Source: a virus. From it: a stretch of 64,000 bases of DNA. The stretch is from positions 114,345-178,344 of IMG/VR virus record IMGVR_UViG_3300007512_002515. One strand, written 5' to 3'. A model generated the notes under the pieces. That model was not told where the DNA came from, searched no databases, and saw only the letters and a list, made by a program, of their open reading frames with translations. A program made the translations under genes and the position numbers. Below are positions 30,296-62,253 of this stretch, in pieces. Position 1 is the first letter of the stretch; each line of letters starts with the position of its first letter.

Positions 30296-30324
30296 CTTGT
30301 GATTTGTTTGATGGAGAACTGTGC

Positions 30325-31908
30325 ATGTCAAAAGGATTAGTAGAAAGTCTTGCTGAAGCTTCAATTTTAGCTGTTTACCGGGCTCATCATGACGAATTAA
30401 GTTATATTGCTTTACGAGAGGGCATTACTACTGGAATTCTTTTAAAAGAAGAATATTCGTCTGAAGATGCTAACAAGCTAGCGGACATTTCGAAAGAAAT
30501 GGAAGCAACAATTGATATGCTCGAAAAAGCCGGTGTTGCCGCAGCTGGTGATAGCAATGAAGCGGTAAAGGGCTGGAACAACGTTACAAAAGCGTTGAGG
30601 GGTGCGTTGTCAACAGTCAATCCAGCAGAGATTATCAATTTAATAAACGATCCAGACCCTAAAGCACTCCAGAAAAAAGCGACTGAACTTACCAAGGTGC
30701 TACAAAAAGTGCTTGGAGAGATAGCTGCGATTGTTGAGACAGTTGAGTCATTTAAGAAGAACTTTGGCAATGTCAAAATTCCAGACGGAGTTGATCCTGA
30801 AGGTGCCATGACGTTGCTACAACTATCTAATGCTTCATCAGGAAAAGGGGACGAACAACCTACCAAGCCGGCTTCCACCACCGAATCTTACATGTTGGCT
30901 GACCATTTATTACTTGAAGCTCCGCCACCCACCGAAGATCAAGAGCAGCCTGAGCAAGAGGGTCAACCAGCACCAGAACAGCAGGAAGCGGCAACAGGCT
31001 GGTTCCCAGATGCTGACAAGCTCAAGCAGGCAATAGAAAAAGCGTATAAAGAACCTTCCTGGTTTAAGCAAAAGTGGGCAGATGGCACCCAGGCAGCAGA
31101 GAAAGCCGTTGCTGATGAAGAAGGCGGCGGCGGATTTATGAAGAAAGCGCTTGGATTCGTGAAGGGCCTCTTCGGGGGTGGAGGAGAAACAAAGATCGTT
31201 TCTGGAGAACTTCTTGGTTCTGCAATTCTGAACACACCATATGATGCCTTTATGAAGATAGACCTCTCGGCATTAAAAGGCGATCTGGCTGATACAACTA
31301 CGGGAACAGCGGATAATACCACCCAAGCATTAGAGACGGCTGTGGAAGAGGATCCCGCACAGCCAACAGATGGGGATGAGCCGCCACCCCCCACGGAAGA
31401 AGAATCAATTGAGTCACAGAAAGCTGCCGAGACTGCCGCGAAAGAAGTCGCCGTAGCAGCCGCAAAATTAAATGACCCTCCAGGTGTCGCAGCCGGAAAA
31501 GCGATTGAGGGCTGGCGTGACGCTTTACCCCCTTCCACACAAAAATGGATCCAAGCCGCAGGTCGTTACGATGATCTAAAGGGGGGAATCGAGACAGTGT
31601 TTGCTGATCAAGCAAAGACGATGTCGGCAGCTGTTGAAACCGCAATATCAACATGGCATGAGAAAAATGCAGATGCAATTGCAAAATCAAAGCGTTTTTC
31701 TAAGAAAAGTCAAGCGGCCTTACAAAAGATGATTCCTGATATGGTCGCTTCAATTATGCAAAAAAAGCACGAGTCTACGGGACGATTTACCTACGGTACA
31801 GTTCAACGCGCAGTTTATCGTTACTGTGACAACTATTATTTTAATAATGACGTGCTAATAGAGTCCAGTAGATGGGGCAGACTAGCCGGCTTAGGAGAGG
31901 ACCGATGA
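30325..31908 (+). CDS. Large acidic helical protein, probable virion protein
   Basis: 527 aa from the ATG at 30325 (GGAG before it). It is rich in Ala/Glu/Pro with low-complexity acidic runs (E-A-P-P-P-T-E-D-Q near residue 195, D-E-P-P-P-P-T-E-E-E near 350) between helical segments. A tag-like L-A-D-H-L-L-L-E-A segment precedes the first acidic run. The C-terminus R-W-G-R-L-A-G-L resembles the R-W-R-K-L-A-G-L end of the 396-aa protein at 34940, pointing to a shared role. It could be a prohead core/scaffold-like or packaged protein. No family is known to me. Confidence 0.6.
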   Translation: MSKGLVESLAEASILAVYRAHHDELSYIALREGITTGILLKEEYSSEDANKLADISKEMEATIDMLEKAGVAAAGDSNEAVKGWNNVTKALRGALSTVNPAEIINLINDPDPKALQKKATELTKVLQKVLGEIAAIVETVESFKKNFGNVKIPDGVDPEGAMTLLQLSNASSGKGDEQPTKPASTTESYMLADHLLLEAPPPTEDQEQPEQEGQPAPEQQEAATGWFPDADKLKQAIEKAYKEPSWFKQKWADGTQAAEKAVADEEGGGGFMKKALGFVKGLFGGGGETKIVSGELLGSAILNTPYDAFMKIDLSALKGDLADTTTGTADNTTQALETAVEEDPAQPTDGDEPPPPTEEESIESQKAAETAAKEVAVAAAKLNDPPGVAAGKAIEGWRDALPPSTQKWIQAAGRYDDLKGGIETVFADQAKTMSAAVETAISTWHEKNADAIAKSKRFSKKSQAALQKMIPDMVASIMQKKHESTGRFTYGTVQRAVYRYCDNYYFNNDVLIESSRWGRLAGLGEDR

Positions 31909-32324
31909 CAAGAGCAGATTCAAAATTTCTCTTGGAGGTACTTAGATTTGAGTATTCTCAACGATTGTCTTTCATGCTTCACGAAGCAGAAGTTTTTGAT
32001 GCGCATGGCAATATTGTTATTAAGCCTGATTTGAAGGTTCGTCACAAAGCGTCAGGATACGAGTACACAGTGGACAGAGTGGAGGGAGACTCTCCAGGGA
32101 ATATTCAAATTATTTTACGCGACCCGGAAGAACCCCGTTTTGAAGCTCCGCCACCCAGTGAAGAAGTTTTGGATGAGGTCCCCGCGGTGCTAGCTGAAGA
32201 TGATTTACCGGTTATGTCTGTTGGGAATGTAGACATAATCTCTAAACTCGATGATGAGGATCCAGAAGAAGAGTTCTTTATTGTTGATGAAAAAGATTTT
32301 AAAGACGAATACGAGGTAAAGTGA
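31905..32324 (+). CDS. Acidic protein of unknown function
   Basis: 139 aa, ATG in an ATGA overlap with the preceding stop, AGGAG site. The N-terminal helix L-L-E-V-L-R-F-E-Y-S-Q-R-L-S-F-M-L-H-E-A is followed by a small beta domain (L-K-V-R-H-K-A-S-G-Y-E-Y-T-V-D) and an acidic tail with E-A-P-P-P-S-E-E. The helix plus L-H-E fits the loose tag pattern. It belongs to the virion-like block. Confidence 0.6.
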   Translation: MTRADSKFLLEVLRFEYSQRLSFMLHEAEVFDAHGNIVIKPDLKVRHKASGYEYTVDRVEGDSPGNIQIILRDPEEPRFEAPPPSEEVLDEVPAVLAEDDLPVMSVGNVDIISKLDDEDPEEEFFIVDEKDFKDEYEVK

Positions 32325-32325
32325 C

Positions 32326-33033
32326 ATGTCGATCAATGATAGAGAATTAGAGAAAGTAATTCGAGAGACGCTTGGATTGAAAGATACTAAGAAAACCCTG
32401 AAAGAAGCTTACGTTCTTGAAGCAGAGAAATATAATCTTACGACTGACTTGCTAAGTCAAAAAACAAACACTGCGCACCAAGAATTATTGGATGGGTATG
32501 TAGAGACATCTAACCATATTTCTGCGAAGCTTGATACCGTTGATAAGTCAGTCGCTAATTCTAATGATTCAGCGTTTCGATCTCTTAAGTGCGAGGAAGT
32601 GTATAATTTAAACGCTTCATTTCTTCATGCGTATTATTTTGATAATATAGCTGATCCTACATCAAAAATCACAATGGATTCATTAGCCTATATGAGGTTG
32701 TCTCGCGATTTTGGTACATTTGATAATTGGCAACAAGACTTTGTTGCATGTGCAATGTCTTCTCGTGAGGGATGGGCAATCACTGTTTACAATTGTTTCT
32801 TAGACCGCTTTATGAATATCGTTGTAGATCTGCATAGTATTCATGTTCCAATGAATTGTTACCCAGTAATTGTTGTTGACATGTGGGAACATGCTTATTA
32901 TCGTGATTACCTGAACGATAAGAAAAAGTATGTTTTTGCTATGATGAAAGAATTAAATTGGGATGTTGTAGAGGCTCGAGTAAAGCGCGCAGATAAATTA
33001 TCAAAATTATTTTCAAAACCCCTCGAGGTATGA
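32326..33033 (+). CDS. Tagged Fe/Mn superoxide dismutase
   Basis: 235 aa. A tag-like start, M-S-I-N-D-R-E-L-E-K-V-I-R-E-T-L, precedes an Fe/Mn-SOD fold. All four metal ligands can be placed: His51 (A-H-Q-E-L-L-D-G-Y), His101 (S-F-L-H-A-Y-Y-F-D-N), and Asp185 and His189 in D-M-W-E-H-A-Y-Y, the SOD signature. F-G-T-F-D-N-W (129-135) is also typical. It would convert superoxide to peroxide and oxygen, perhaps inside the virion or just after DNA entry. Sequence between the ligands diverges from cellular SODs, so activity is likely but unproven. It sits among acidic virion-type genes. Confidence 0.85.
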   Translation: MSINDRELEKVIRETLGLKDTKKTLKEAYVLEAEKYNLTTDLLSQKTNTAHQELLDGYVETSNHISAKLDTVDKSVANSNDSAFRSLKCEEVYNLNASFLHAYYFDNIADPTSKITMDSLAYMRLSRDFGTFDNWQQDFVACAMSSREGWAITVYNCFLDRFMNIVVDLHSIHVPMNCYPVIVVDMWEHAYYRDYLNDKKKYVFAMMKELNWDVVEARVKRADKLSKLFSKPLEV

Positions 33034-33034
33034 C

Positions 33035-33721
33035 ATGAAAATGAAAAAAGCAGACATTAGAAATTTTTTCGAGAGAGCATACACCCATGTCTTGAGAGAG
33101 CAAGACGAAGACCCATTCGCAACTGATGACGAGGGTGGCGACGACGCCGGTGGCGAAGAGGGTGGCGATGACCCATTTGCAGACGACGCCGGTGGCGATG
33201 AGGGCGGTGGCGAAGAAGGTGGTGATGAAGAAGGCGGCGAGGGTGAAGAGGAAGAGGAAGAAGAGCCCGAAGTTGAAGTAGACGAGGAAGATGAAGTTAG
33301 ATTCGGTAAATCCTTGGATGACCAATTACAAGCAATTTTTATCGATATAGAATCCGACGCACTTAAGTCCGCAGCCATCCAGGCAGAGGGCTACTCTTTG
33401 TCTCGGTTGTTTCTGCGAGAGCAAGAAGAAGCTCCTGACGCCCCGGCGATTGATATAGACAAATTTGCAGCAGAAACAGCTCGGCTTATTAAGAATTTTG
33501 ACGCATTTTTTGACATTGAAGAGCAATTACAGGCAAAAGCAATGAGCTTTTTATTAGACAAGTATGGAGAAGAAGTTGCAGACGAGTTTGCTGAGCTTTT
33601 AACAGTACGTCACGGAATTAAAACAAACGAAGAGCAGCGTGCAGAAAGAGAAGACCTTGATATGGAACAGCCGATTGCGGTAGGCGCATCTGGCGGCGGT
33701 GGTGGTGGTGGAGCTGTATGA
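33035..33721 (+). CDS. Tagged acidic protein with Gly/Asp/Glu repeats
   Basis: 228 aa. The start has a tag-like helix, A-D-I-R-N-F-F-E-R-A-Y-T-H-V-L-R-E-Q, ending L-R-E. Residues ~25-85 are imperfect repeats of G-G-D-D-A-G-G-E-E and poly-Glu. A second helical domain holds L-S-R-L-F-L-R-E-Q-E-E, another (L/I)-x-E site, and the C-terminus is poly-Gly. It looks like a prohead core or DNA-compacting acidic protein with internal cleavage sites. No homolog is recognised. Confidence 0.65.
   Translation: MKMKKADIRNFFERAYTHVLREQDEDPFATDDEGGDDAGGEEGGDDPFADDAGGDEGGGEEGGDEEGGEGEEEEEEEPEVEVDEEDEVRFGKSLDDQLQAIFIDIESDALKSAAIQAEGYSLSRLFLREQEEAPDAPAIDIDKFAAETARLIKNFDAFFDIEEQLQAKAMSFLLDKYGEEVADEFAELLTVRHGIKTNEEQRAEREDLDMEQPIAVGASGGGGGGGAV
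33110..33265. repeat. Low-complexity coding repeat (Gly/Asp/Glu)
   Basis: Imperfect GGTGGCGA/GACGACGCC-type repeats inside the acidic gene. They encode D-P-F-A...G-G-D-D-A-G-G-E-E twice, then a poly-Glu run. Slippage between copies probably generated them. Confidence 0.7.
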
Positions 33722-34939: not shown

Positions 34940-36130
34940 ATGTCAAAGAAAACTCTCTCAGAGGTATATGGGTACTCAAGACCAAAGAAGAAGTCTAGAA
35001 AACTTTCTTCGGGCGGCTTGCGTTCTATAATTTTACGCGAAATCCGAAGTGTCATAAGAGAGCAAGACGAAGAATCCGGAGGTCCTGTCAACGTAGAGGG
35101 TATACCCGACGCGTACAAAGAGCCAAAGGGAACGGCGATGGCTGGCAAAGACAACATCGCAGCAGCCGACGCAACAGAAATCGTAGCTCAACTTGTCAGT
35201 GGCGATTCCAAGATGCCCATCTTTGCAGCTATTGGTGAATTTCATAATCCAGAATACACCGAAGGTATTCCTAAGGCCAGTACTCCAGAGGGTGCAAAAG
35301 CAATTGCTGCCTGGGCGAAAGGATTAGGTCCTGATTTTTTAAAGCAGAACATTGAAAAAGTTCAGCAAGCGTTGCCCAGTAGCGGAATGCCCAAAGACTC
35401 TATGCCCGCCCTCGAACCGTCGGATAGCGGTCATGTTAAAGACGCGTTAAGTCCTGGCGGCCAAATTAATATCGACATGGATGGTAAGATGGCCGATGGG
35501 CTGGAAGATGTTGAAGATTGGCACCAGAAGTATGGAAGCGATGCTAAGCTCGGCGGAGCTGAGAAAGAAGAAACGACCAAAGAAGGGTCTAAGCGATCTC
35601 TTGCAAACATTCTTTTTGAAGACAAGTATCCACAAGGCCATAAGGGTGGCATGCCTGGTGCTCCCGTAAAGGGAGAGAAGGACGCTGTCGATCTCGGTTC
35701 AATCAAGGATTTGGCGCTTAGTTTCTTAACAAAAGGACTCCAAACATACGATGATGAAGGCGGCGACGACACGATAGAAGTTAAGGAGAATGAGCCTATT
35801 CAAGTTGCTTCGATGATCCCCACACAGAAAAATGTCCTTTTAGGAAAAGCTCTTGCGTTTGCAATCGGCGGTGGATTCGGTGGTAAAGAGCTTGGCGCAT
35901 ATATCACTGGTGGAAATGAGATCTTAGATGGTCACCATCGATGGGCCGGAACAATGATTGTCGATCCGGGTGCCGGGATTAAGGGCCATAAGGTAATGGC
36001 ACCAGCGAAGGATATTCTTCCCGTGCTGACTACTCTCGGCAACGCGTTAGGTCGGCAACAAAAGGGTATGGAGCATGGAGAGAAAAATGAATCTCTTCAG
36101 CGCTGGCGTAAATTAGCTGGTTTACTTTAA
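34940..36130 (+). CDS. ParB/sulfiredoxin-like domain protein with tag elements
   Basis: 396 aa, GGAG site. After a basic start, the tag-like helix L-R-S-I-I-L-R-E-I-R-S-V-I-R-E-Q (about residues 29-44) ends I-R-E. A second site, N-I-L-F-E-D-K-Y-P, lies near residue 207. The C-terminal part has P-T-Q-K-N-V-L-L-G-K-A and I-L-D-G-H-H-R-W-A-G (about 329-338), the D-G-H-H-R core of ParB/Srx-like domains that hold nucleotides or cut DNA. It ends R-W-R-K-L-A-G-L-L, like the end of the 527-aa protein at 30325. It is probably a virion-carried nuclease or NTPase. The biochemical activity is unproven. Confidence 0.65.
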   Translation: MSKKTLSEVYGYSRPKKKSRKLSSGGLRSIILREIRSVIREQDEESGGPVNVEGIPDAYKEPKGTAMAGKDNIAAADATEIVAQLVSGDSKMPIFAAIGEFHNPEYTEGIPKASTPEGAKAIAAWAKGLGPDFLKQNIEKVQQALPSSGMPKDSMPALEPSDSGHVKDALSPGGQINIDMDGKMADGLEDVEDWHQKYGSDAKLGGAEKEETTKEGSKRSLANILFEDKYPQGHKGGMPGAPVKGEKDAVDLGSIKDLALSFLTKGLQTYDDEGGDDTIEVKENEPIQVASMIPTQKNVLLGKALAFAIGGGFGGKELGAYITGGNEILDGHHRWAGTMIVDPGAGIKGHKVMAPAKDILPVLTTLGNALGRQQKGMEHGEKNESLQRWRKLAGLL

Positions 36131-44720: not shown

Positions 44721-44877
44721 GCTACGAAGCTCTGGGGTGATCACCCAAACTGAGGTTGTCTATAAAGAAGGGGACTTATTTGTCGCAAAAGATGTTGTCA
44801 CAAACGCAAAGCGTATTATTGAATATCGCGGGTCGATGGTCGAAGGCCAGAGCGGCAAGAGGCTTCTTAAGGGATGA
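44683..44877 (+). CDS. Small protein of unknown function
   Basis: 64 aa, overlapping the nuclease by 38 bases and GroEL by 4. Strand-rich, with V-V-Y-K-E-G-D-L-F-V-A-K and I-I-E-Y-R-G-S. Its place directly before groEL is where GroES would be expected, but it is shorter than GroES (~97 aa) and lacks a GroES mobile loop I can recognise. Confidence 0.6.
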   Translation: MEHNTLSTEILNELRSSGVITQTEVVYKEGDLFVAKDVVTNAKRIIEYRGSMVEGQSGKRLLKG

Positions 44878-46466
44878 TAGATAGTTCATCTAAAATTATT
44901 AATTTTTCGGATGATTCTCGAGAAGCCGTAAAGGTCGGGGTTGATATGCTTAACTCTGCTGTTCGTGTGACAATGGGCCCTAGCGGAAAAAATGTCCTGA
45001 TTGAAAGAGACGGAACATCACCTATTTTGACGAAAGACGGGGTAACAGTCGCAAGAGCCATAAATCTTCGGGACCGATTTGCAAATATGGGCGTTCATCT
45101 AGTTCGTGAAGCAGCACAGCGTACAGCAGAAGAAGCAGGAGACGGCACAACAACCGCCACCGTCTTGGCTGCTGCGATCTTTCAGGAAGGCTTAAAGGCC
45201 CTTAACGCCGGACATGAACTTAATGATATTCGGACCGGTATCCGCGGCGCTACCCAGAAGCTAGTTAATGAGCTTAAGCGAAAATCCAGTCCAGTGAAAT
45301 CAGATAAAGACCTATTAAGAGTTGCCAATATCTCTGTTAATGGCGAGAGCGATCTTGCTGAGCTCATTGTTGATGCGCTAAAAGCTGTCGGTGAAACAGG
45401 TGTTGTCACTGTAGACGAAGCAAAGGGCTTTGAGTCATCACTAGAGGTTGTGGATGGGTGTGAGGTCGACAGAGGATATGTTTCACCTTATTTCATAAAT
45501 CGTCCATCTCGGATGTGCTGTGAGCTCGAAAACCCAGCTATTTTAATCACGACTCACAAAATTCATATGCTTAGTCATATTATACATTTTTTAGAAGAAG
45601 CGGCCCACACAAATCGCTCTATAATATTTATCTCTCCTGAAATAATGGGAGAAGCATTGCAGGCGGTCATCTTAAATCATTCGAAGAACCTTATTAGGTC
45701 TTGCGCATTAGCAGCGCCAGAGTTCGGTGATGCGAGAATAGAGGCATTACGAGACTTGTCTATTTTATTGGGCGGTCAGCTCTTAACTGATGAGCCATCA
45801 TCCTGGAAAAATTATACGTTGGAAAACTTGGGTCGTTGCGACCGGATGTTAGCGTATCGTTTCAGAAGTGTATTCATAGGCGCAGCTGGTAGCGTAGAAG
45901 CCAGAGAAGCCCGAATTCAAGATATCTTGAATGCCAGGAAAGAACACACGGCAAGTAGTGAAACAACAGCTTCTTTAGATCGTCGTGTAAGACGTATGAG
46001 CAGTGGAATTGGTATCCTTCGGGTGGGTGGAGCGACAGAAGCAGAGATCAGAGAAAGAAAAGATAGAGTCGATGATGCTATCTATGCAACACGAGCCGCA
46101 ATCGAAGAGGGCATCATCCCTGGCGGAGGGTCAATACTCGCTAGAATTGCGATGGAATTTTTAAAGAATGAGTCTTCGATCGGGGAAAAGATTTTGTATA
46201 AAGCAGCTACATCACCCTTAAAACAAATAGCTAGAAATTGTGGCGCTGTACCAGAGGTTATTTTAGAAAAAATGCTTGAAAAACCCTTTGCGTACGGATA
46301 TAATGGATTATCCAATGAAATATGCAATCTTAATAAATCTGGAATTGTTGATCCCGTCAAGGTCGCTCGTTTAGCGTTAACAAACGCTTCAAGTGTTGCG
46401 GTTAACCTATTATCGATTGGGTGTGCGATGGTCACTGATGAGGAGCAATCAAGCGAAAATGTCTAA
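44874..46466 (+). CDS. groEL: GroEL-type chaperonin
   Basis: 530 aa, ATGA start. ATP-binding and hinge motifs are evident: V-T-M-G-P-S-G-K-N-V, L-T-K-D-G-V-T-V-A-R, and G-D-G-T-T-T-A-T-V-L-A. The apical domain has G-Y-V-S-P-Y-F-I-N, and the C-terminal equatorial part has A-I-E-E-G-I-I-P-G-G-G-S. The Gly-Gly-Met tail of bacterial GroEL is absent. It would fold phage proteins. No GroES-like gene is seen, so it may act alone, as reported for some phage chaperonins, or use host GroES. Confidence 0.92.
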   Translation: MIDSSSKIINFSDDSREAVKVGVDMLNSAVRVTMGPSGKNVLIERDGTSPILTKDGVTVARAINLRDRFANMGVHLVREAAQRTAEEAGDGTTTATVLAAAIFQEGLKALNAGHELNDIRTGIRGATQKLVNELKRKSSPVKSDKDLLRVANISVNGESDLAELIVDALKAVGETGVVTVDEAKGFESSLEVVDGCEVDRGYVSPYFINRPSRMCCELENPAILITTHKIHMLSHIIHFLEEAAHTNRSIIFISPEIMGEALQAVILNHSKNLIRSCALAAPEFGDARIEALRDLSILLGGQLLTDEPSSWKNYTLENLGRCDRMLAYRFRSVFIGAAGSVEAREARIQDILNARKEHTASSETTASLDRRVRRMSSGIGILRVGGATEAEIRERKDRVDDAIYATRAAIEEGIIPGGGSILARIAMEFLKNESSIGEKILYKAATSPLKQIARNCGAVPEVILEKMLEKPFAYGYNGLSNEICNLNKSGIVDPVKVARLALTNASSVAVNLLSIGCAMVTDEEQSSENV

Positions 46467-46793: not shown

Positions 46794-47549
46794 ATGGCTC
46801 TAGACAATTATTTTCAAGACGTAGGTCAGCACGCTCTTCTCACTAGAGAAGAAGAAGTTGTGTTGGCAAAAGCAATAGAAGCGGGTGATAAATACGCCCG
46901 TGACAAGATGATCCAGTCAAATCTCAGACTGGCCATCTCAATCGCAAAAAACTTTCGAGATCGAGGGTGCTCATTTGAGGACCTAATCCAGGAGTCTAAT
47001 CTTGGTTTGATCAGGGCCGTGGATCGCTTCGATTGGCGCCGAGGCTTTAAGTTCAGCACCTATGCTGTGTGGTGGATTCGACAAGCGGTCCAGTCTCATG
47101 TTGCAGGCCAATCTGGCGCAATTAAAATGCCCACCTCTGCAAGAGCGCTCATGTACAAGGCGTACAAGTTCTCTGAAGAGTATCAGGAAGCATTTAAGTG
47201 CGAGCCCTCTCCAGAGGAGGTTGCCGAAGCGGTGGGCGTGCCAGTTCAAACGCTAAAAGCTATTCGGAAGTCGGGCGCGCCACAATTGTCGCTTGATGCA
47301 CCAGTCAGCAAGAGCGATTCTGGAAGCAGAACGTTTGCTGAGCTTGTGGGTGGGGTCGACGATAGAGACCCGGGGGACGATATGGACAAGGTCACTCTCC
47401 GAGGTGCCCTTGTTGAAGCGCTGATGAAGCTGTCACCGCGTGAAGAAAAGATCATTCGTCTTCGTTTTGGGCTTTCGGAAGAAGATACCGATTCGAAGAA
47501 TTTTCCAATTTCTAAGAAAGACTTTGTACGTCTTCAGAGGAGCCGTTAA
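46794..47549 (+). CDS. Sigma70-family factor lacking region 4.2
   Basis: 251 aa. Regions 1.2-2.4 are complete: [47 protein letters not shown] (-10 recognition). Region 3 and the start of region 4 ([15 protein letters not shown]) follow, but the -35-binding HTH of region 4.2 is replaced by a short unrelated tail ending L-Q-R-S-R. No frameshift restores it. T4 gp55, which reads late promoters by their -10 alone, also lacks a usual region 4. A small HTH-like protein follows immediately. It probably redirects host RNA polymerase. Confidence 0.88.
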
Positions 47550-53105: not shown

Positions 53106-53309
53106 ATGCCATTTTGGAAATTTACTAAGGGGCCTTATAAGGACAAAGTTGCACTGGTTGTTGATAATGAAAAGCTAAAAGCAGCAACAACATGGGAAAA
53201 AGAATTAATCACGCTGTATGTGGATGGAACGACGGTTGCATTCATACGCGAAGCTTTAGAACAAATAGCTGATTACGTAGACGAAAAGAGCAATCTACTG
53301 TCCCAGTAA
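53106..53309 (+). CDS. Small protein of unknown function
   Basis: 67 aa from the ATG at 53106 (TAGGAG upstream). Starts M-P-F-W-K-F-T-K-G-P-Y. Its end overlaps, tail to tail, the minus-strand kinase gene by 15 bases. No terminator hairpin is seen between the converging units. Confidence 0.6.
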   Translation: MPFWKFTKGPYKDKVALVVDNEKLKAATTWEKELITLYVDGTTVAFIREALEQIADYVDEKSNLLSQ

Positions 53310-54158
53310 AGTACGTCTTTCCTTGTTGGTTCCACCACCCCGTGTGGAAAGCTGATCTTCAATCCATTGTCGACCTATCGGGTTCTGGATTGGACGCGCG
53401 ATAAAGGCATCCACTGCCGCTTCTACATCTTCGGGTAGCGGACCATACACTGTATTATCAACGATCGTGATGGCTGCCTGGCTAAACAGGCTTTGAAATG
53501 CTCCAAGGTTGGCTTGCACGTCAGTCCAGATTTCTTCCACTTTCGGTGGGGGAAGCTTTCTTTTACGCTTCATGTTTCTTTCTTGGGCAACTTCAAGGGT
53601 GGTGTTCACAAACACCATATATGTGTCATACCCAAGTTCTTCCATCGCAGCTTTCTTGGTGGTAATTTTCTCTAAATCATCACCGGTACCATCAATAATG
53701 ATACCAAGCCGTGAGTTGGGTCCAGTCCAAGCTCTTTGCAATGACGTCTTATATCTTTTTGCTTTTCCTCGGGGGGAGTCGGGTGGAATACCTCTCTCAT
53801 CATCCAGACCAAGTTCATAAGCAAGTTCTGGATCATCTTCTGCTATTGTAGCAAGATCACCTGGATCGACTCCCACATCATTAAGATACTTTTCAAACGC
53901 CGGGTCTGAGTTTAAGATTTTAAGACCAGTGTTGGTTGCTGTAGTAAGTTCGCTAGCTTGGACTCCACCAAATAATGCTTTGGCTGTGAAGCTCTTTCCG
54001 CTTCCTGGTCCACCTGCCATGAATACGGCTTTAAGAATTCCAGGGTCGTAAATACCCTCGGTGAGTATGCCATTAATCGCTTCACGAAAAATTCTTTGTT
54101 CGTTTCGAAAAAGCTCTTCTCTAATAATCCGAAGTAATTGCTTTTTAGACACTCTCAT
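53295..54158 (-). CDS. Zeta-toxin-like kinase with double tag
   Basis: 287 aa. Two tag-like segments open it: M-R-V-S-K-K-Q-L-L-R-I-I-R-E-E and I-F-R-E-A-I-N-G-I-L-T-E-G, ending I-R-E and L-T-E. A P-loop kinase of the zeta toxin/AAA type follows: G-G-P-G-S-G-K-S (49-56), then L-N-S-D-P-A and I-I-I-D-G-T-G. Zeta kinases phosphorylate UDP-N-acetylglucosamine or other substrates, and phage homologs include polynucleotide kinases. The tag suggests entry with the virion. It follows the 134-aa tagged gene by one base. Confidence 0.75.
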   Translation of the reverse strand: MRVSKKQLLRIIREELFRNEQRIFREAINGILTEGIYDPGILKAVFMAGGPGSGKSFTAKALFGGVQASELTTATNTGLKILNSDPAFEKYLNDVGVDPGDLATIAEDDPELAYELGLDDERGIPPDSPRGKAKRYKTSLQRAWTGPNSRLGIIIDGTGDDLEKITTKKAAMEELGYDTYMVFVNTTLEVAQERNMKRKRKLPPPKVEEIWTDVQANLGAFQSLFSQAAITIVDNTVYGPLPEDVEAAVDAFIARPIQNPIGRQWIEDQLSTRGGGTNKERRTLLGQ

Positions 54159-54159
54159 T

Positions 54160-54564
54160 TTAGAGCTCGTTTATTGCAATATCAATAACACCTGTTTCTG
54201 ATCCTAAGCCAGCAGATTCTGAAACGAGTTGAGTTTGAGCATCCAGCATTTCTTGTAAGGCTTCTGCTTGTGCGACTACTGCTTCCATAATTTGAGCTTG
54301 TGCAGCAATTGGACCTGTGCAGTCCGGACAAAGATGAGCGGCATTTTGGACCGATTCAACTACCTGTTCAAGCGCTCGACTTGCAACTTCCATTTCAACA
54401 ACAAGATCACCATCGGCCCCTTCCGTCTCTGCCATAAGAGCCGGCTCGGGAGAGGGTTCGATGACATCGATGACATCGACGGGGGCAGCGTCGCCACAAC
54501 CTTCACGCATCTTATATTTTTCTTCTCTAATAATTCTGCGCAATTGGCGCTTAGAAATCTTCAT
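54160..54564 (-). CDS. Tagged acidic helical protein
   Basis: 134 aa, AGGGAGA site. Canonical tag M-K-I-S-K-R-Q-L-R-R-I-I-R-E-E, then an acidic stretch and a helical domain with a C-P-D-C pair (H-L-C-P-D-C). No family is recognised. It is one of the cleanest tag copies and the only unit near the tubulin gene. Confidence 0.7.
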   Translation of the reverse strand: MKISKRQLRRIIREEKYKMREGCGDAAPVDVIDVIEPSPEPALMAETEGADGDLVVEMEVASRALEQVVESVQNAAHLCPDCTGPIAAQAQIMEAVVAQAEALQEMLDAQTQLVSESAGLGSETGVIDIAINEL

Positions 54565-54639: not shown

Positions 54640-55869
54640 TTACAGCCCACCAAGAAGTGTGATTGCTATAAGCCCAGGGATACCTTCTTTGATATAAATT
54701 CCTGAGAAAACTGTTTTTGCTCTTCCGCCTACATACGAGAAAGCAGACTCAAGTCGTCGACCTACATCTGGGTCAGATGCCATAGCGTTGTCGACGATTA
54801 GCAAAAGAGCACCAGTCTCTGTGCCTCCGCTTGGAGTGGGACATGGTGAGGATCTTAAACATCCTTGATATACCAACGATCCCAGGTCATTTCTGTTAAC
54901 GTCTCTTACAACTGTACTTCCGATGACCATTCTACCAGGTGTGCTCAAACATCTTTCCAGATCTTTCGTGTCAAATGTTTGCACCTCGGTATGCTCTGAT
55001 GCCAACTTAAAGACTTGTGAAACAAGCTTTGCAAAGTTTTTATTCGCAACAGGCATCATATTAAGTAGCCCAGCTTTTCCACGAAGCAATTGAAGTTGAC
55101 GTTCATTATCAATGATAATGTACGGGCTATTACCCACATCGCTTAAAAGCGATGCATAATTTGTTTTGATTGTCGGATTAAGTAATTCTTGAGCCGTTGG
55201 TTTGGTGATGATATAAACAACTTTTCCTGAAGCCTCGATGGACTGGAGATATCTGTTAAGAGACGCATCGAGTTCGTGGCAAGCACTTCCAGTGCCTCCG
55301 CCCCCACCTGCTACAACAAACAACCAGTCTACATGACCGATTCTGGTTCGTACTGCATCTTCAACGAATGCGCTGTTTTCTGCAATGACTTTTTTTCCGA
55401 GAGCAATATCTTTCCCGACACCATCTGCGCCTGGTACTAAGACGAAGTGCTGTGGGTCAACACCCCCTGGCTGGTCTTTTTCTGTGGTGTTAACCAAAAT
55501 CGTTTTTGTAAAGCCTACGTCAAGAAACGCTTTTACAATTTTTCCACCACCACCACCAACGCCAATAAAGCCGCAATTGATTGCGGATGGTGCTGAATTA
55601 TCTGGTAGGAGTCTTTCATCCCCAGCAGCAGGATCATCGTCATAGGCCATCACGAAGTCAAAATCGTCTCCAACATCTGGCGTGTTAATATAAGTGTCGT
55701 CTTGTTTTTCGCCACCTGTCATTATTTGCTCCTCGTCTATTTTTGGATCTGGCATAATCTCTTTTAACCTCTTTGCAATTATAGCGTCTTCTGAATCAGA
55801 TATTTCTTTTTCTTTTTCTTTCAGCGCGGGCTGGCTCAGACCAACCCTGTTCCACGTTGTCGAAGCCAT
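54640..55869 (-). CDS. FtsZ/tubulin-family protein
   Basis: 409 aa. After an acidic ~95-residue N-terminal extension, the GTPase core begins C-G-F-I-G-V-G-G-G-G-G-K. The tubulin signature is V-A-G-G-G-G-G-T-G-S-A (187-196), and a core helix with I-I-I-D-N-E-R-Q follows. The T7 catalytic-loop region reads V-A-N-K-N-F-A-K-L (275-282). By my alignment to FtsZ I-N-V-D-F-A-D-V, both acidic residues that complete the GTPase are replaced by Asn and Lys. Filaments might assemble with slow or no turnover. It could act as a phage cytoskeleton (compare PhuZ) or interfere with host division. A TATAAT-like box lies upstream. Confidence 0.85.
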   Translation of the reverse strand: MASTTWNRVGLSQPALKEKEKEISDSEDAIIAKRLKEIMPDPKIDEEQIMTGGEKQDDTYINTPDVGDDFDFVMAYDDDPAAGDERLLPDNSAPSAINCGFIGVGGGGGKIVKAFLDVGFTKTILVNTTEKDQPGGVDPQHFVLVPGADGVGKDIALGKKVIAENSAFVEDAVRTRIGHVDWLFVVAGGGGGTGSACHELDASLNRYLQSIEASGKVVYIITKPTAQELLNPTIKTNYASLLSDVGNSPYIIIDNERQLQLLRGKAGLLNMMPVANKNFAKLVSQVFKLASEHTEVQTFDTKDLERCLSTPGRMVIGSTVVRDVNRNDLGSLVYQGCLRSSPCPTPSGGTETGALLLIVDNAMASDPDVGRRLESAFSYVGGRAKTVFSGIYIKEGIPGLIAITLLGGL

Positions 55870-57365: not shown

Positions 57366-58367
57366 ATGCCGCGTAGAATGATTCTTAAAGAAGAGACTAG
57401 CGCCTATAATATCGCTTTAGATGTCGTGGGTCTTATACCCGGTGTCGGTGAATTTGCAGATCTTGCCAATGCTTTAGACTATGCCCGAAAAGGTGATTAT
57501 TTGTTTTCAGCGTTGTCTTTGGTCTCTATTATTCCTGAGCTGGGAGACCTTGTTGGGAAGGGTGGTAAGGTTGCAATCGCACTTTCGAAATTGGGGAAGG
57601 GTGGCAAGGCGATGTCTAAGGCTGGCCAAGCCGCCGTTAAAAATAAGAAGTTCACTGATACATCTGACTACATTGTCAAACTTAAGAAAGTACTAACTGC
57701 GAATCAAGACTTGATTGATAGCGTTTTCGAAAAAGCAGCAGAAATCGATAATGAAGAATTGCAAGAGCACCTTCCAAGAATTAAGGAAGCTGTAGACCTA
57801 TTCATCAGAGAAGCTGAAGAGGTTGAAACAGCGGTCCTTGAAGCTACCCTACGCGAGTGCGTGCGTGAATTATTAAATGAAGGGACCGAGTTTCGTACCC
57901 TTGATTCTCCACTTACATATAATCGATACGGTGATGTTAAGCGGATAGCTTATTGCGACAACTCGGTAACAGAGCCTCCAGAATATCGTGACGCTTATTT
58001 CAAAGAATGGGAAAACTGGCGCAGGTATACAAAGAACCATAGCAGGCGACTTAAAAAGCCAGTTCTTGAAGAGATTGTCCCTGGTGTTTCCGATGTTTGT
58101 ATTATTGGATTTTTAGATTATCATTCCCAGGGGACCTATAACGACGGCCAAAACACTCATTGGTATATCGACTATATGAAGACCCGCGGGGATGCTCAAG
58201 GTACAGGCATCGCTAGTAAATTAATGGATCACTGGTACCAAACAGTCCCGCAACCTGGCGATAATGTTAATTTTGGAAAGATGATGCGGAAAGAGATTGG
58301 TCACCTTAAAGACAAGATGGTAGACAAGCACCCCGATATCAAGACTAGAGGGGGCGTGTATTACTGA
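57366..58367 (+). CDS. Pre-toxin-like domain, tag, then GNAT-like domain
   Basis: 333 aa, AGAGGAG site. Residues ~18-70 follow the glycine/proline-rich pattern G-L-I-P-G-V-G-E-F-A-D-L-A-N-A-L and S-I-I-P-E-L-G-D-L-V-G-K-G-G-K, typical of the pre-toxin segments in polymorphic toxins. A tag-like L-R-E-C-V-R-E-L-L-N-E-G (about 166-177) follows. The C-terminal part has R-G-D-A-Q-G-T-G-I-A-S-K-L-M (about 274-287), a GNAT acetyl-CoA loop. Cleavage after L-N-E would free the enzyme domain. It is a strong candidate effector. Confidence 0.65.
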   Translation: MPRRMILKEETSAYNIALDVVGLIPGVGEFADLANALDYARKGDYLFSALSLVSIIPELGDLVGKGGKVAIALSKLGKGGKAMSKAGQAAVKNKKFTDTSDYIVKLKKVLTANQDLIDSVFEKAAEIDNEELQEHLPRIKEAVDLFIREAEEVETAVLEATLRECVRELLNEGTEFRTLDSPLTYNRYGDVKRIAYCDNSVTEPPEYRDAYFKEWENWRRYTKNHSRRLKKPVLEEIVPGVSDVCIIGFLDYHSQGTYNDGQNTHWYIDYMKTRGDAQGTGIASKLMDHWYQTVPQPGDNVNFGKMMRKEIGHLKDKMVDKHPDIKTRGGVYY

Positions 58368-59866
58368 TGCAAATCACTCGTAACAGAATCAGTAGAATAA
58401 TAGTCGAGTCCGAAGAACGAACTGCTTTGCTTCGAGACGTGGACGATATTCTGGATGATGTGATTATGGATGCTGCACCTGAGCTGGTTCAGATGATTCG
58501 TGAACGTGAGGTTGACGAAGATATTGACGAATTCATAGACGGTGCGCTTCATGGCGGTTGGGATGCAAGAACCCAAGACTATGCGGACCCACCTGCGGTC
58601 GGAGATGATGATGCAATCGGCGATGGTGAGACCACCGAGATGTATGTGCTTGGGTACGACTGGGGATGGGAGCATCCTCAAAAAGCGAAAGATAAGAACA
58701 TCCCACCCGCGACAAAGACCGAGATGATCGAGTACGCATTGGAGAATTTTAGCGGAAGGATCACCGAAGAATTTGTGATAGATGCTTTAGAGAAAGCGGT
58801 TGGATATGCAAAGAATCAAATTGATGACATCCATTCGCTGGTTAAGAAAGCCCAGGATCGATGGGGATGGAAAATAGCTCCAGCTGTGGTCGGGGTAGAA
58901 GTTTTTGAACACGCTATTCTGCCAAGTGTACTTGGAGCGATCCATCCAGCTTTTTATGCATTAGCCGCAGTCCCCACAATAGAGATATTGGCAGCCAGTG
59001 CTTTAGCGATTGCAAAGGCACGAATGCCCAAGAGAGAAAAAGAAGAATTGCCTCCAGGACACTTAGATTGGTACGAGGACGAAGGTCGTAAAAAGGCCGT
59101 TGGAGAAAATATAAAGATTAAAAGAAGCCAGTTAAGGCGCCTTATCCGAGAAGCTCTGTTGAACGAAGAAAAAGAGGGATACATGGTTCCTCGTTTTGAG
59201 ACCACAGAAGACATGATGCTTTTTCTTGATGAGCTTGAACCGGAAGACACAACAATGCACGATGTTGTTGATCCAGAAACTGGTGAAGTCTGGCTCGAAG
59301 CTGGGTATACACCCCTTGAAATCGGGCTTGTAGAACTTGAAGAAGAGGAGCCTGAAGAAAGCGATCCACAAGAGCTTGACAATTATGATTGGGATGCCTG
59401 GGATCGAGAGCAAGAAGAAGAAGAGAAGGCCGAAGAGGAAAAATATGAGCGTACTGTGAAGAAGGTCCAGGAAGATGCAGTCCAAGCAGGAAAGGATTGG
59501 GCAATGGATACAATGGGTGATGCGGTTCATAGTCCAAGCATGTGGCAGGACCAGGGCTACGGGCAATGGAGCTCACCTGAGGATTACGTTAGCGGCTTTG
59601 GTCAAGACGTAACAGCAGACGTTGCAGACGCGCTTCTTACGTACAGTGCTGATGAAGATGTCAATGATATGTACAAGTCACTTCCGACCGAAGAACGAAT
59701 GGGGGGATATTATAGGGACCCTTACACTGATCGACCCTCAAGACAGATTATGAAAGACATTGTTGCTGATTCTGTTTATGACGGTATCATGCAAGGTATA
59801 GAAGAATATAAGGAGAAATATCCAGAAAAGGTTTTACCATGGACAGACCTTGAGGCTACAACATGA
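58367..59866 (+). CDS. Tagged two-part protein with internal tag
   Basis: 499 aa, one-base overlap. N-terminal tag M-Q-I-T-R-N-R-I-S-R-I-I-V-E-S and a second complete tag at about residues 248-262, I-K-I-K-R-S-Q-L-R-R-L-I-R-E-A. A hydrophobic helical patch (about 170-225) precedes the second tag, and a very acidic stretch (about 325-365) follows it. This looks like two once-separate tagged proteins fused in frame. No enzyme family is recognised. Confidence 0.7.
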   Translation: MQITRNRISRIIVESEERTALLRDVDDILDDVIMDAAPELVQMIREREVDEDIDEFIDGALHGGWDARTQDYADPPAVGDDDAIGDGETTEMYVLGYDWGWEHPQKAKDKNIPPATKTEMIEYALENFSGRITEEFVIDALEKAVGYAKNQIDDIHSLVKKAQDRWGWKIAPAVVGVEVFEHAILPSVLGAIHPAFYALAAVPTIEILAASALAIAKARMPKREKEELPPGHLDWYEDEGRKKAVGENIKIKRSQLRRLIREALLNEEKEGYMVPRFETTEDMMLFLDELEPEDTTMHDVVDPETGEVWLEAGYTPLEIGLVELEEEEPEESDPQELDNYDWDAWDREQEEEEKAEEEKYERTVKKVQEDAVQAGKDWAMDTMGDAVHSPSMWQDQGYGQWSSPEDYVSGFGQDVTADVADALLTYSADEDVNDMYKSLPTEERMGGYYRDPYTDRPSRQIMKDIVADSVYDGIMQGIEEYKEKYPEKVLPWTDLEATT

Positions 59867-60333
59867 AAATTACAGAACGCGAACTTCGAAGAATTATTAA
59901 AGAACAGATGGCTTCTAAAAAAATACAACAAGTAGCAGTTGAGTGGGAGCTCGGGGATCATGATTCAACCGAAGGATTTGATAATCTTCCACCAATCGTA
60001 AATTTACCCTCTTCTGTCATGGCAGAATATAGGGCTGAGCTAGCAGAATATGGTGAACAAGACGCCGCGCATGTCATCAGCAATTGGTTAGACGATACAT
60101 TTGGGTGGCTGAGCCAGTGGGAATTTATTGGTCCCCGCCGACTACGTGAAGCGTATGTAGCATCGGCAATTGGACAGGTCCCAGTATTCGCGGAGTGGTC
60201 AGCAGACGGACTCGTGATGGAGCTAAAAACTCCGGGGGATGTACCCATCAAGTTCCGAACCCAAAGGGACGTACGAGCTCTCATTACCATGCTTGAAGAA
60301 TTATTGGATGGACCAATGAGGACATCTCCGTGA
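59863..60333 (+). CDS. Tagged protein of unknown function
   Basis: 156 aa, ATGA overlap. Tag M-K-I-T-E-R-E-L-R-R-I-I-K-E-Q, then a domain with V-E-W-E-L-G-D-H and a central helix H-V-I-S-N-W-L-D-D-T-F-G-W-L. No family is recognised. Part of a chain of tagged genes joined by 4-base overlaps. Confidence 0.7.
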   Translation: MKITERELRRIIKEQMASKKIQQVAVEWELGDHDSTEGFDNLPPIVNLPSSVMAEYRAELAEYGEQDAAHVISNWLDDTFGWLSQWEFIGPRRLREAYVASAIGQVPVFAEWSADGLVMELKTPGDVPIKFRTQRDVRALITMLEELLDGPMRTSP

Positions 60334-60581
60334 AGATAACAAGGCGCCAGCTTAGGAGAATCATTGCTGAGGAGCTTGCTTTAGACCTCGAGGTTGGTGA
60401 TGTGATCCTAACTGGACGCTTTAAGAATAAGCGGACGGTGGTAAAGAAGCTTGGAACAGACGATCTCGGTCAACCTACTGTCAATGGGATGAAGGTCCTT
60501 TCATTTAGGATCGAAAAGCTAATGCCCAAAAGCAAGTGGAGCAAGAAAACTCTTGAAGAGCTTGAAGAGGATGAAGAATGA
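60330..60581 (+). CDS. Tagged small beta protein
   Basis: 83 aa, ATG in 4-base GTGA-type overlap. Tag M-K-I-T-R-R-Q-L-R-R-I-I-A-E-E, then L-E-V-G-D-V-I-L-T-G-R-F-K-N-K-R, a small barrel, and an acidic end. The start codon at 60330 reads as GTG. Confidence 0.65.
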   Translation: MKITRRQLRRIIAEELALDLEVGDVILTGRFKNKRTVVKKLGTDDLGQPTVNGMKVLSFRIEKLMPKSKWSKKTLEELEEDEE

Positions 60582-60621
60582 AAATCACAAAACGACAGCT
60601 TAGAAGAATTATTAGAGAAGC
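60578..60621 (+). repeat. 44-base direct repeat, copy 1 (tag-coding)
   Basis: Identical over 44 bases to 61015-61058; both begin at an ATG and encode the tag. Their flanks differ, so the repeat covers only the tag. Confidence 0.95.
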
Positions 60622-61018
60622 AATAATTGTTGAGGCTCGTCCAACAAATTATGAACAACTTCCATATGATATGGGCGGACCATGGGTTGATAAAGACGCT
60701 CCAGTTGGAAAAGGCGCTTCACAATACGATGACCTTGACGTAGAACTGACTGACGCAGAAATAGAAGCCTCTATGGGCTGGGAGAAGGGAACTGATTACG
60801 AACGTCATCAAGAAGTTCATTGGAAAGAGGGAGATCTTGTTCGCCAGGTTGATTTCGAGGGTGATGAATGGGGTGGAGACTACGAGAAGACTGTGGGAGA
60901 CCAGGTTGGACAAGTCATTGAAATTGATAAAGATCCGGATGGTACGCAGTATACTGTTCTTTTTCCTGACGGCACAACGGTAATGGATACTTACGATTCA
61001 TTTGAGGCGGCAAAATGA
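60578..61018 (+). CDS. Tagged protein of unknown function
   Basis: 146 aa, ATGA overlap. Canonical tag M-K-I-T-K-R-Q-L-R-R-I-I-R-E-A, then an acidic domain with V-R-Q-V-D-F-E-G-D-E-W-G-G and V-G-Q-V-I-E-I-D-K-D-P-D-G-T, an SH3/KOW-like barrel. No family is recognised. Confidence 0.7.
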   Translation: MKITKRQLRRIIREAIIVEARPTNYEQLPYDMGGPWVDKDAPVGKGASQYDDLDVELTDAEIEASMGWEKGTDYERHQEVHWKEGDLVRQVDFEGDEWGGDYEKTVGDQVGQVIEIDKDPDGTQYTVLFPDGTTVMDTYDSFEAAK

Positions 61019-61058
61019 AAATCACAAAACGACAGCTTAGAAGAATTATTAGAGAAGC
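61015..61058 (+). repeat. 44-base direct repeat, copy 2 (tag-coding)
   Basis: Second copy of the repeat at 60578. Base-perfect identity in a codon-degenerate region implies a recent copy or gene conversion. Confidence 0.95.
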
Positions 61059-61377
61059 CACCGGCGACTGGTATAGCGATGAACACGAAACATTAGCAGA
61101 CCGGAAATTTGCTGATAGTCATCGCGGAAACGCTAACCTTAGGTCTAGTAAGGGCTGGCAAACCAGCGATGGTCGGTGCAACTCTCATAATATTCCAGAG
61201 AATGAAGCGTACGAAGCCGTCGCAGTACTACAAGAATTTGGGTTTGAGCTTGGAATACCCATAACAACTGATTCAAACAATATTGCGATTGATGATGCTT
61301 TGGCAGCATACCCTGGTGAGTATACATACGATGACTTTTACTGCGCCGTACAGGTCGTAAAAGGTCGGGGCGCGTAA
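61015..61377 (+). CDS. Tagged protein of unknown function
   Basis: 120 aa, ATGA overlap. Tag identical to the previous gene, then a short domain with two conserved-looking Cys (G-R-C-N-S and F-Y-C-A-V) and an acidic helix pair. No family is recognised. Confidence 0.68.
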   Translation: MKITKRQLRRIIREATGDWYSDEHETLADRKFADSHRGNANLRSSKGWQTSDGRCNSHNIPENEAYEAVAVLQEFGFELGIPITTDSNNIAIDDALAAYPGEYTYDDFYCAVQVVKGRGA

Positions 61378-62253
61378 ATGAAAATTACAAGACGACAACT
61401 TAGAAGAATAATTCTTCAGGAGAAACAAGATCTTCCTGGAAGGTTCTTAAATTGGGTTTTCGATTCAGATGAGTATATTAAGGATGAACTTGAACAACTT
61501 CGTCACCCAAGTCTTGATACGATTGTTGATGCTGTTAATATTGCCAAACATGAGGTGGAGTTCGCGGTGTTGAAGAATTTTTTATTCAATATCAATTCCA
61601 AATTTGCAAACCGTGAGCTTATCGAAGTAACAGGGAACGATCTCAGAAGGCTTATACGAGATGTATTATTAGAAAAGAAGTTCAGCGATATTACTCCCGG
61701 GAAAAGCATTTATTTAGATGTCCCCGAAGAGGAGATTGCTTTTCATGACGCCAGCACGATCGATTTGGATGACGAAATATTTGATCTGGTGACCACCGCG
61801 TACGCTTCTCTTCCAGGAGGCAACATTAAAGTAAAAAGTCCAAATGATCTACCCGGTTCATACACTGTTTTTCGGGCAGTCGATGTCGATGAGGATCCAG
61901 ATCCTGACGCGGTGGTCTTTGGTAAGATGCGAGGTCCTAATTTAAAGATTGGTGGAATGGGTCATGATGGTGGAAAAGGCATTCGAGCTTCCATCACTGA
62001 GTTGCTGAACATGCTGCGGCAACCAGGCACATTCGCCGAGCTTTCCGGTAAGCCAGCTGAGATAGCGATCAAGGCCGGTATCCCTGCGATCATTGATCCA
62101 GATGTGGTTCAAGCTGTCGTTCGGAGAGACATTGATTGGGTTGGCGCACACCCAACGGGTCAGTACCCGGCTGGCTACGAGGGCTGGTATTCTAGAGGCT
62201 ATTCAGGTGAGTCCGGGAGTCCGCATCTGAAAATGATTTTTGGGAATGTATAA
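61378..62253 (+). CDS. Double-tagged protein, GNAT-like possibility
   Basis: 291 aa, start directly follows the previous stop. Tag 1 is M-K-I-T-R-R-Q-L-R-R-I-I-L-Q-E. Tag 2 near residues 83-97 is I-E-V-T-G-N-D-L-R-R-L-I-R-D-V-L-L-E. The C-terminal domain has D-V-D-E-D-P-D-P-D-A-V-V-F-G-K and G-M-G-H-D-G-G-K-G-I-R-A-S-I. These could suit an acetyltransferase-like fold, but the match is weak. The layout tag-helical lead-tag-domain parallels 58367. Confidence 0.65.
   Translation: MKITRRQLRRIILQEKQDLPGRFLNWVFDSDEYIKDELEQLRHPSLDTIVDAVNIAKHEVEFAVLKNFLFNINSKFANRELIEVTGNDLRRLIRDVLLEKKFSDITPGKSIYLDVPEEEIAFHDASTIDLDDEIFDLVTTAYASLPGGNIKVKSPNDLPGSYTVFRAVDVDEDPDPDAVVFGKMRGPNLKIGGMGHDGGKGIRASITELLNMLRQPGTFAELSGKPAEIAIKAGIPAIIDPDVVQAVVRRDIDWVGAHPTGQYPAGYEGWYSRGYSGESGSPHLKMIFGNV

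Follow-up and report, generated by a model that had tools for sequence, protein, structure and literature searches.

A superoxide dismutase-fold protein with a predicted capsid targeting propeptide in a virus with a T4-type head module

The window, 64,000 nucleotides of DNA at the end of a virus record of 178,344 bases, encodes a protein of the Fe/Mn superoxide dismutase (SOD) fold with a 27-residue N-terminal extension. Our best reading, which we hold to be highly probable, is that of a T4-type processed internal head protein built on an Fe/Mn SOD. We observe the SOD fold with intact metal ligands, an N-terminal tag shared with other genes, an invariant site ahead of the domain, a prohead protease and a capsid protein on the same record, and repeated loss of the metal ligands among relatives.

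Results

The SOD gene (Table 1) is tightly packed between its neighbours, with 1 nt between its start and the upstream stop codon and 1 nt between its end and the downstream start. In Pfam, the Sod_Fe_C profile matches the ORF with 75.1 bits (4.9e-21; curated cut-off 20.9), whereas Sod_Fe_N reaches only 13.1 bits, under its cut-off of 27; matches to the NCBIfam SOD equivalogs also fall under their cut-offs, and a PHROGs search assigned neither the SOD nor the acidic genes beside it to an informative family. The top PDB match by sequence is 1coj, the Fe-SOD of Aquifex pyrophilus (3e-27). Structure prediction had been proposed as a check in the preliminary description, and the AlphaFold2 model of the precursor has the SOD fold (mean pLDDT 88.3; about 66 for the N-terminal 30 residues), with TM scores of 0.80/0.89 to 1coj by Foldseek and, by VIA, a Z of 26.9 and an rmsd of 1.8 over 205 residues, residues 28-234 being aligned to 2-212. 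This alignment covers the N-terminal helical hairpin region that holds ligands 1 and 2, despite the sub-cut-off Sod_Fe_N profile. Searching a viral fold library with the SOD returned two phage SODs only. The SOD identity assigned earlier is thus upheld by the Sod_Fe_C match, by the model and by the ligands in place.

Table 1 Features of the SOD gene and its surroundings (window positions; a slash marks the site within a motif)
Feature	Position	Strand	Remark
SOD-fold gene	32326..33033	+	235 codons, ATG start, ORF intact
Predicted propeptide / capsid targeting sequence, residues 1-27	32326..32406	+	tag helix MSINDRELEKVIRE and cut site LKE27
L25-K26-E27 codons, predicted prohead protease site (cut before A28)	32398..32406	+	L/I-X-E motif
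Predicted mature SOD domain, residues 28-235	32407..33030	+	structure alignment to 1coj
His51, metal ligand 1	32476..32478	+	ligand-column alignment
His101, metal ligand 2	32626..32628	+	ligand-column alignment
His170, proposed second-sphere His	32833..32835	+	lost along with ligands in relatives
Asp185 to His189 (D-M-W-E-H), metal ligands 3 and 4	32878..32892	+	ligand-column alignment
Large acidic gene, C-terminal RWGRLAG	30304..31908	+	motif in common with candidate head-core scaffold
Upstream acidic partner gene (w31872)	31872..32324	+	relatives' orthologues N-terminally tagged, e.g. MKNLTEEDIIRVMREEW
Downstream very acidic partner gene (w33035), VLRE/QDE site	33035..33721	+	orthologues tagged, e.g. 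MMSRLTVDQLRRLIVEE
Gene with VIRE/QDE site, C-terminal RWRKLAG	34940..36130	+	

The counts given below rest on relatives sampled as the best 80 of 552, the best 80 of 212 and 32 of 42; taken as best-matching relatives, these samples lean towards the window protein. The patterns of the first two scans lie over the metal site, so that ligand loss is undercounted there, and those of the third avoid it. Left out of the counts are L034-L043 (distant phage SODs, handled apart), L110 (for which no ORF was extracted), L279 (whose start was placed within the gene), and rows whose sequence is part of a kept row or contains one. As cellular control we used 45 complete proteins out of 79. H2 (MW462191), which is surrounded by bacterial-type genes, was not used as phage evidence.

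The preliminary description had placed all four metal ligands, and His51, His101, Asp185 and His189 indeed fall in the ligand columns, with the D-M-W-E-H-A-Y-Y motif intact in the ORF; the same four columns read HHDH in all 45 complete cellular relatives. His170, which we take to be a second-sphere residue, completes the set of active-site histidines discussed here. His51 precedes Tyr58 by 7 residues (H-x6-Y), and the corresponding spacing in textbook SOD enzymes is 8 residues. A register error of one residue at His51 was set aside: the H-x6-Y form is present in 27 of the 45 cellular relatives, and among the 101 phage relatives His51 is lost only jointly with His101, His170 and His189 (12/12), which supports its placement as a ligand. 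A helix bulge behind the spacing is not claimed; a literature search found no supporting paper. Given the intact metal site, the window SOD is rather likely to be an active enzyme.

Ahead of the domain lies a predicted prohead protease site. In T4, the prohead protease gp21 cleaves behind an L/I-X-E motif, and IPIII needs no more than its ten N-terminal residues to be targeted to the head (PMC9026906). Glu27 does not vary among the 101 distinct relatives (101/101), P3 is L in 76, I in 15, V in 7, K in 2 and M in 1 (L/I in 91/101), and P1' is A in 65, S in 29, G in 5 and N in 2. Alignments of the model to cellular SODs start at residues 24-30, with residue 28 placed against residue 2 of 1coj, so the predicted cut coincides with the start of the domain. 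No L/I-x-E site ahead of the domain is found in any of the 45 complete cellular relatives, and the median number of residues ahead of ligand 1 is 26 in these proteins versus 54 in the phage family. The propeptide would measure 27 residues in the window SOD and 22-61 in relatives. The SODs of the group formed by L025-L030 and L033 have two LxE sites in a longer propeptide and are extended at the C-terminus by some 100 residues rich in Pro.

The record itself carries genes for S77, a prohead protease of T4 type, and for the capsid protein Gp23. The N-terminal stretch of this Gp23 ends in LREQ (propeptide end LRE), and L-R/K-E is kept there by each of 16 Gp23 proteins from the phage group. Both S77 and Gp23 are present on 15 of the 16 core-family records tested; on the remaining one, a 147-kb fragment (L020), neither was found. 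Neither was found on any of four distant SOD records tested. Among ten distant phage SODs examined, seven (L036, L037, L040-L043 and L129) have an [IL]xE/A site 12-14 residues from the start, just ahead of the SOD domain; S77 was looked for on three of these site-bearing records (L036, L037 and L042) and not found.

The N-terminal end of the protein resembles a tag that recurs across the window. Eight window genes start with close variants of MKITxRQLRRIIRE, and against a matrix of these eight tags the N-terminus of the SOD, matched in register (offset 2), scores 9.5 bits, which ranks fourth among 103 other genes of the window and the head stretch. Of 18,613 internal windows used as controls, two reach 9.5 bits; the score of a gene being the best of up to 40 positions, this amounts to about 0.4% per gene. 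In the SOD model the tag forms a helix at residues 5-15, with a low pLDDT of about 67. N-termini of the SOD family have a median of -1.3 bits against the tag matrix (39/85 at or above zero), those of cellular SODs -9.7 bits (2/45) and those of metabolic neighbour genes -10.1 bits (0/69), a comparison whose rows are related, so that the significance of the group differences is overstated. Since 46 of the 85 family members score under zero, the tag is loose in sequence; the mean fraction of the top residue in the 85 proteins is 0.35 for residues 1-22 versus 0.67 for residues 28-230. A gene of the head module (L047:8184-8630) resembles the SOD tag, and head targeting of the tag-sharing genes is what we infer.

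The tag, in the form M(K)IT.RQLRRIIRE, is common to eight genes that include those at 53295-54158(-), 54160-54564(-) and 58367-62253(+), and its 42 bases of DNA are identical in two of the eight. Those of the tagged window genes that were scanned against PHROGs gave no match. Together, the eight are likely a repertoire of head-targeted cargo. Returning to the SOD, the tag-like starting helix of the preliminary description is recovered in the model and in the in-register match to the eight genes, and strong support for its packaging-type character comes from the invariance of LxE, from the sharing of the tag, from the presence of a protease and a capsid protein of T4 type, from the position of the site at the domain boundary and from the controls with cellular SODs. 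Judged by sequence, the extension has the look of a capsid targeting propeptide of T4 type.

The surroundings of the gene were said to be acidic, and they are: the genes flanking the SOD carry net charges of -12.0 and -21.5 per 100 residues. Many relatives keep dCMP deaminase, the w31872 orthologue, the SOD and the w33035 orthologue in this order, and the partner orthologues are often clearly tagged; in the L025-L030 and L033 group other genes, and not the w31872 partner, lie upstream of the SOD. An RWxxLAG motif stands at most 5 residues from the C-terminus of two nearby gene products (Table 1) and of the candidate scaffold (L047:10096-11766). In the sets scanned, 9 of 10 RWxxLAG matches are at the C-terminus, and the motif is possibly a second, C-terminal head-association tag. 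RWxxLAG is also seen on genes in L002, L006, L007 and L008.

A head module in T4 order, with terminase, portal, S77 protease, a candidate scaffold named from its position alone, and Gp23, is located some 60 kb upstream of the SOD. Genes around the SOD encode a UvsX-like recombinase, a DnaB-like helicase, ribonucleotide reductase, a DNA polymerase, GroEL, a sigma factor and peptide deformylase. The phage GroEL-type chaperonin is at 44874-46466, with the sigma factor gene nearby at 46794, and the gene at 54640-55869(-) has a weak match to PhuZ-like tubulin (E 2.4e-4) and adjoins a tRNA-Ala and a phage tmRNA with the tag ANNNYYYEQALAA. One relative, L156, lies on a 305,838-base jumbo phage contig that also carries S77, so some phages of this group exceed 300 kb; the contig was binned into a Methylococcaceae MAG (TMED69), which is a weak hint at the host.

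The metal site is not kept throughout the family. Counting the window protein itself, 87 of the 101 distinct relatives have the full set of His, His, Asp and His, and one or more ligands are lost in the other 14, of which 12 lack His51, His101, His170 and His189. In the scan with patterns off the metal site, a ligand is missing in 12 of 67 distinct proteins, L279, whose ligand-1 column is cut off by a wrong start, being counted as intact. When the tree is built with these columns removed, complete loss of the histidines takes four changes, three of them forced by well supported branches, and loss of any ligand takes six, four of them forced. These counts give no direction of change; loss is the simpler direction because all 45 cellular relatives have the metal site. 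In the 85-protein tree, six ligand-less proteins group together in one clade, with the window protein and L002 as its sister (support 98).

Ligand-less members as pseudogenes can be rejected: their ORFs are intact and dN/dS is 0.018, 0.042 and 0.054 in three pairs (dS < 2.5), against 0.032-0.070 in three intact pairs, with dS near saturation. The model of ligand-less L007 has the same fold (Z 26.6 to 1coj), L007 and L031 retain synteny, and 29 positions are at least 98.5% identical across 85 members, ligand-less ones included. Backup by a paralogue was also rejected, no second Sod_Fe_C match being found on 11 of 11 ligand-less records, all of them fragments of 45-281 kb. The Glu at the cut site is retained in 14 of 14 relatives with lost ligands; the predicted packaging signal is thus conserved where catalysis is not. 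Judged by sequence, the metal site is dispensable in relatives and has been lost several times under purifying selection, including in the sister clade of the window SOD.

Discussion

Packaging, cleavage, activity and ejection of the window SOD are what we infer, along the following path. An SOD of the Aquifex/clostridial type would have gained a capsid targeting propeptide; residues 1-27 would serve as this propeptide and bring the SOD into the prohead core, and the phage's own S77 prohead protease would cleave after Glu27, leaving a mature SOD that starts where cellular SODs start. The mature protein would remain in the head with the DNA. It might leave the head with the DNA, to which we give an even chance; T4 internal protein IPI is injected with the DNA from the head, according to parts of PMC9958956 and PMC9026906. 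Because its metal site is intact, the window phage SOD would probably remove superoxide, either within the particle or once a new cell has been infected. A second role, structural or acting on a host protein, would need no catalysis: several lineages lost the site yet kept the cut site and the fold, which points to a family role independent of the metal site. Protection by the enzyme from an oxidative burst, as suggested in the preliminary description, is therefore possible for the window protein with its intact site but insufficient for the family: with ligands lost in 14 of 101 relatives, catalysis is hardly the sole role.

Some points speak against this reading, namely the moderate tag similarity with scores under zero in 46 of 85 members, the shortness of the L/I-x-E motif, the V, K or M at P3 in 10 of 101 relatives, the different upstream genes of the L025-L030 and L033 group, and the L020 record, which shows neither S77 nor Gp23. 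The protein could be an ordinary intracellular phage SOD that counters oxidative stress during infection, unpackaged and with an incidental N-terminal helix, as the metal site of the window protein and of 87/101 relatives (itself included) would allow and as the SODs of Vibrio phage 2.275.O and Pseudomonas phage MIJ3, placed among metabolic genes, would suggest. We regard this as improbable, since the LxE at the domain boundary is invariant and has no counterpart in 45/45 cellular relatives, acidic or tagged neighbours are conserved, and ligand-less members are under purifying selection. Somewhat less improbable, though still unlikely, is a structural protein of the head core in which the metal site survives as a relic and catalysis has no part even where ligands are kept. 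All active-site histidines are gone in 12 sequences (four tree changes, three forced), some ligand is lost in 14/101, the 29 near-invariant positions span ligand-less members among the 85, and none of the 11 ligand-less records, fragments as they are, holds a second SOD. However, all four ligands are kept in 87/101, and in 12 of 14 cases the loss is concerted rather than piecemeal, as expected if the metal site is otherwise under selection for metal.

A virion location on the capsid surface, neck or tail instead of inside the head would agree with the roughly 60 kb that separate the SOD gene from the capsid gene. The named substrates of the T4 prohead protease are prohead shell and core proteins, as given in parts of PMC9026906 and PMC9958956, and the protease site in the SOD is invariant; such a location is very improbable. 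The processed internal head protein also allows a wider and more speculative reading, which we consider possible but doubtful: the SOD fold may have turned into a general cargo for the heads of a large T4-headed group of jumbo phages, in which a protein-protein job is conserved and dismutation is optional. The protein could be injected and dock on a host protein as decoy or partner, for example in mixed dimers with the host SOD, or it could be a head core component, and enzyme activity would have been given up more than once, also in the sister clade of the window SOD.

The closest known systems for the predicted packaging route are the T4 proteins IPI, IPII, IPIII and Alt, which carry capsid targeting sequences processed by gp21. 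They are alike in the L/I-x-E end of the propeptide with the cargo behind the site, and in the phage-encoded T4-type protease and Gp23 capsid protein. The SOD differs from them in its cargo fold, its longer propeptide (27 residues) and its tag family, and its packaging is predicted from sequence. Cellular Fe/Mn SODs (Aquifex pyrophilus 1coj; Deltaproteobacteria, Clostridia) share the fold, the four ligands and, in 27/45, H-x6-Y, but those examined have no propeptide site and keep the ligands in 45/45, whereas phage relatives lose them in 14/101. Phage SODs are already known as annotations; those of MIJ3, Vibrio phage 2.275.O and L034-L043 are Fe/Mn SODs with 24-35% identity to the window SOD over the matched part. 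The Cu,Zn-SOD of Megavirus chilensis is likewise virus-encoded, in another virus class, and its fold is unrelated to Fe/Mn SOD. SOD is listed among the enzymes of giant-virus virions in part of a review (PMC9405923). The nearest printed analogy is offered by poxvirus SOD-like proteins, of which vaccinia A45R is in the virion lateral bodies, which deliver effectors at entry, and the leporipoxvirus homologues are described as catalytically inert decoys (PMC9282662 and, for the decoys, a reference cited in it); they have the Cu-Zn SOD fold and animal hosts, and both fold and packaging route are unrelated. Loss of the catalytic metal site, the trait of the poxvirus decoys, is seen in 14/101 relatives and not in the window SOD. 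In open-licence PMC text we found no report of a phage virion SOD, of an invariant prohead protease site on it or of repeated metal-site loss. What is new here, at the level of sequence, is the loss of metal ligands in 14/101 relatives with the predicted cut site kept.

If the processed internal head protein is borne out, tailed phages would bring a redox enzyme into the cell ahead of any transcription, so that one could test directly if the first minutes of infection are limited by superoxide. Relatives that share the cut site but differ in keeping or lacking the ligands would separate catalysis from other roles with no engineering needed, and the signature of tag and cut site would list the injected proteins of uncultured jumbo phages by sequence alone.
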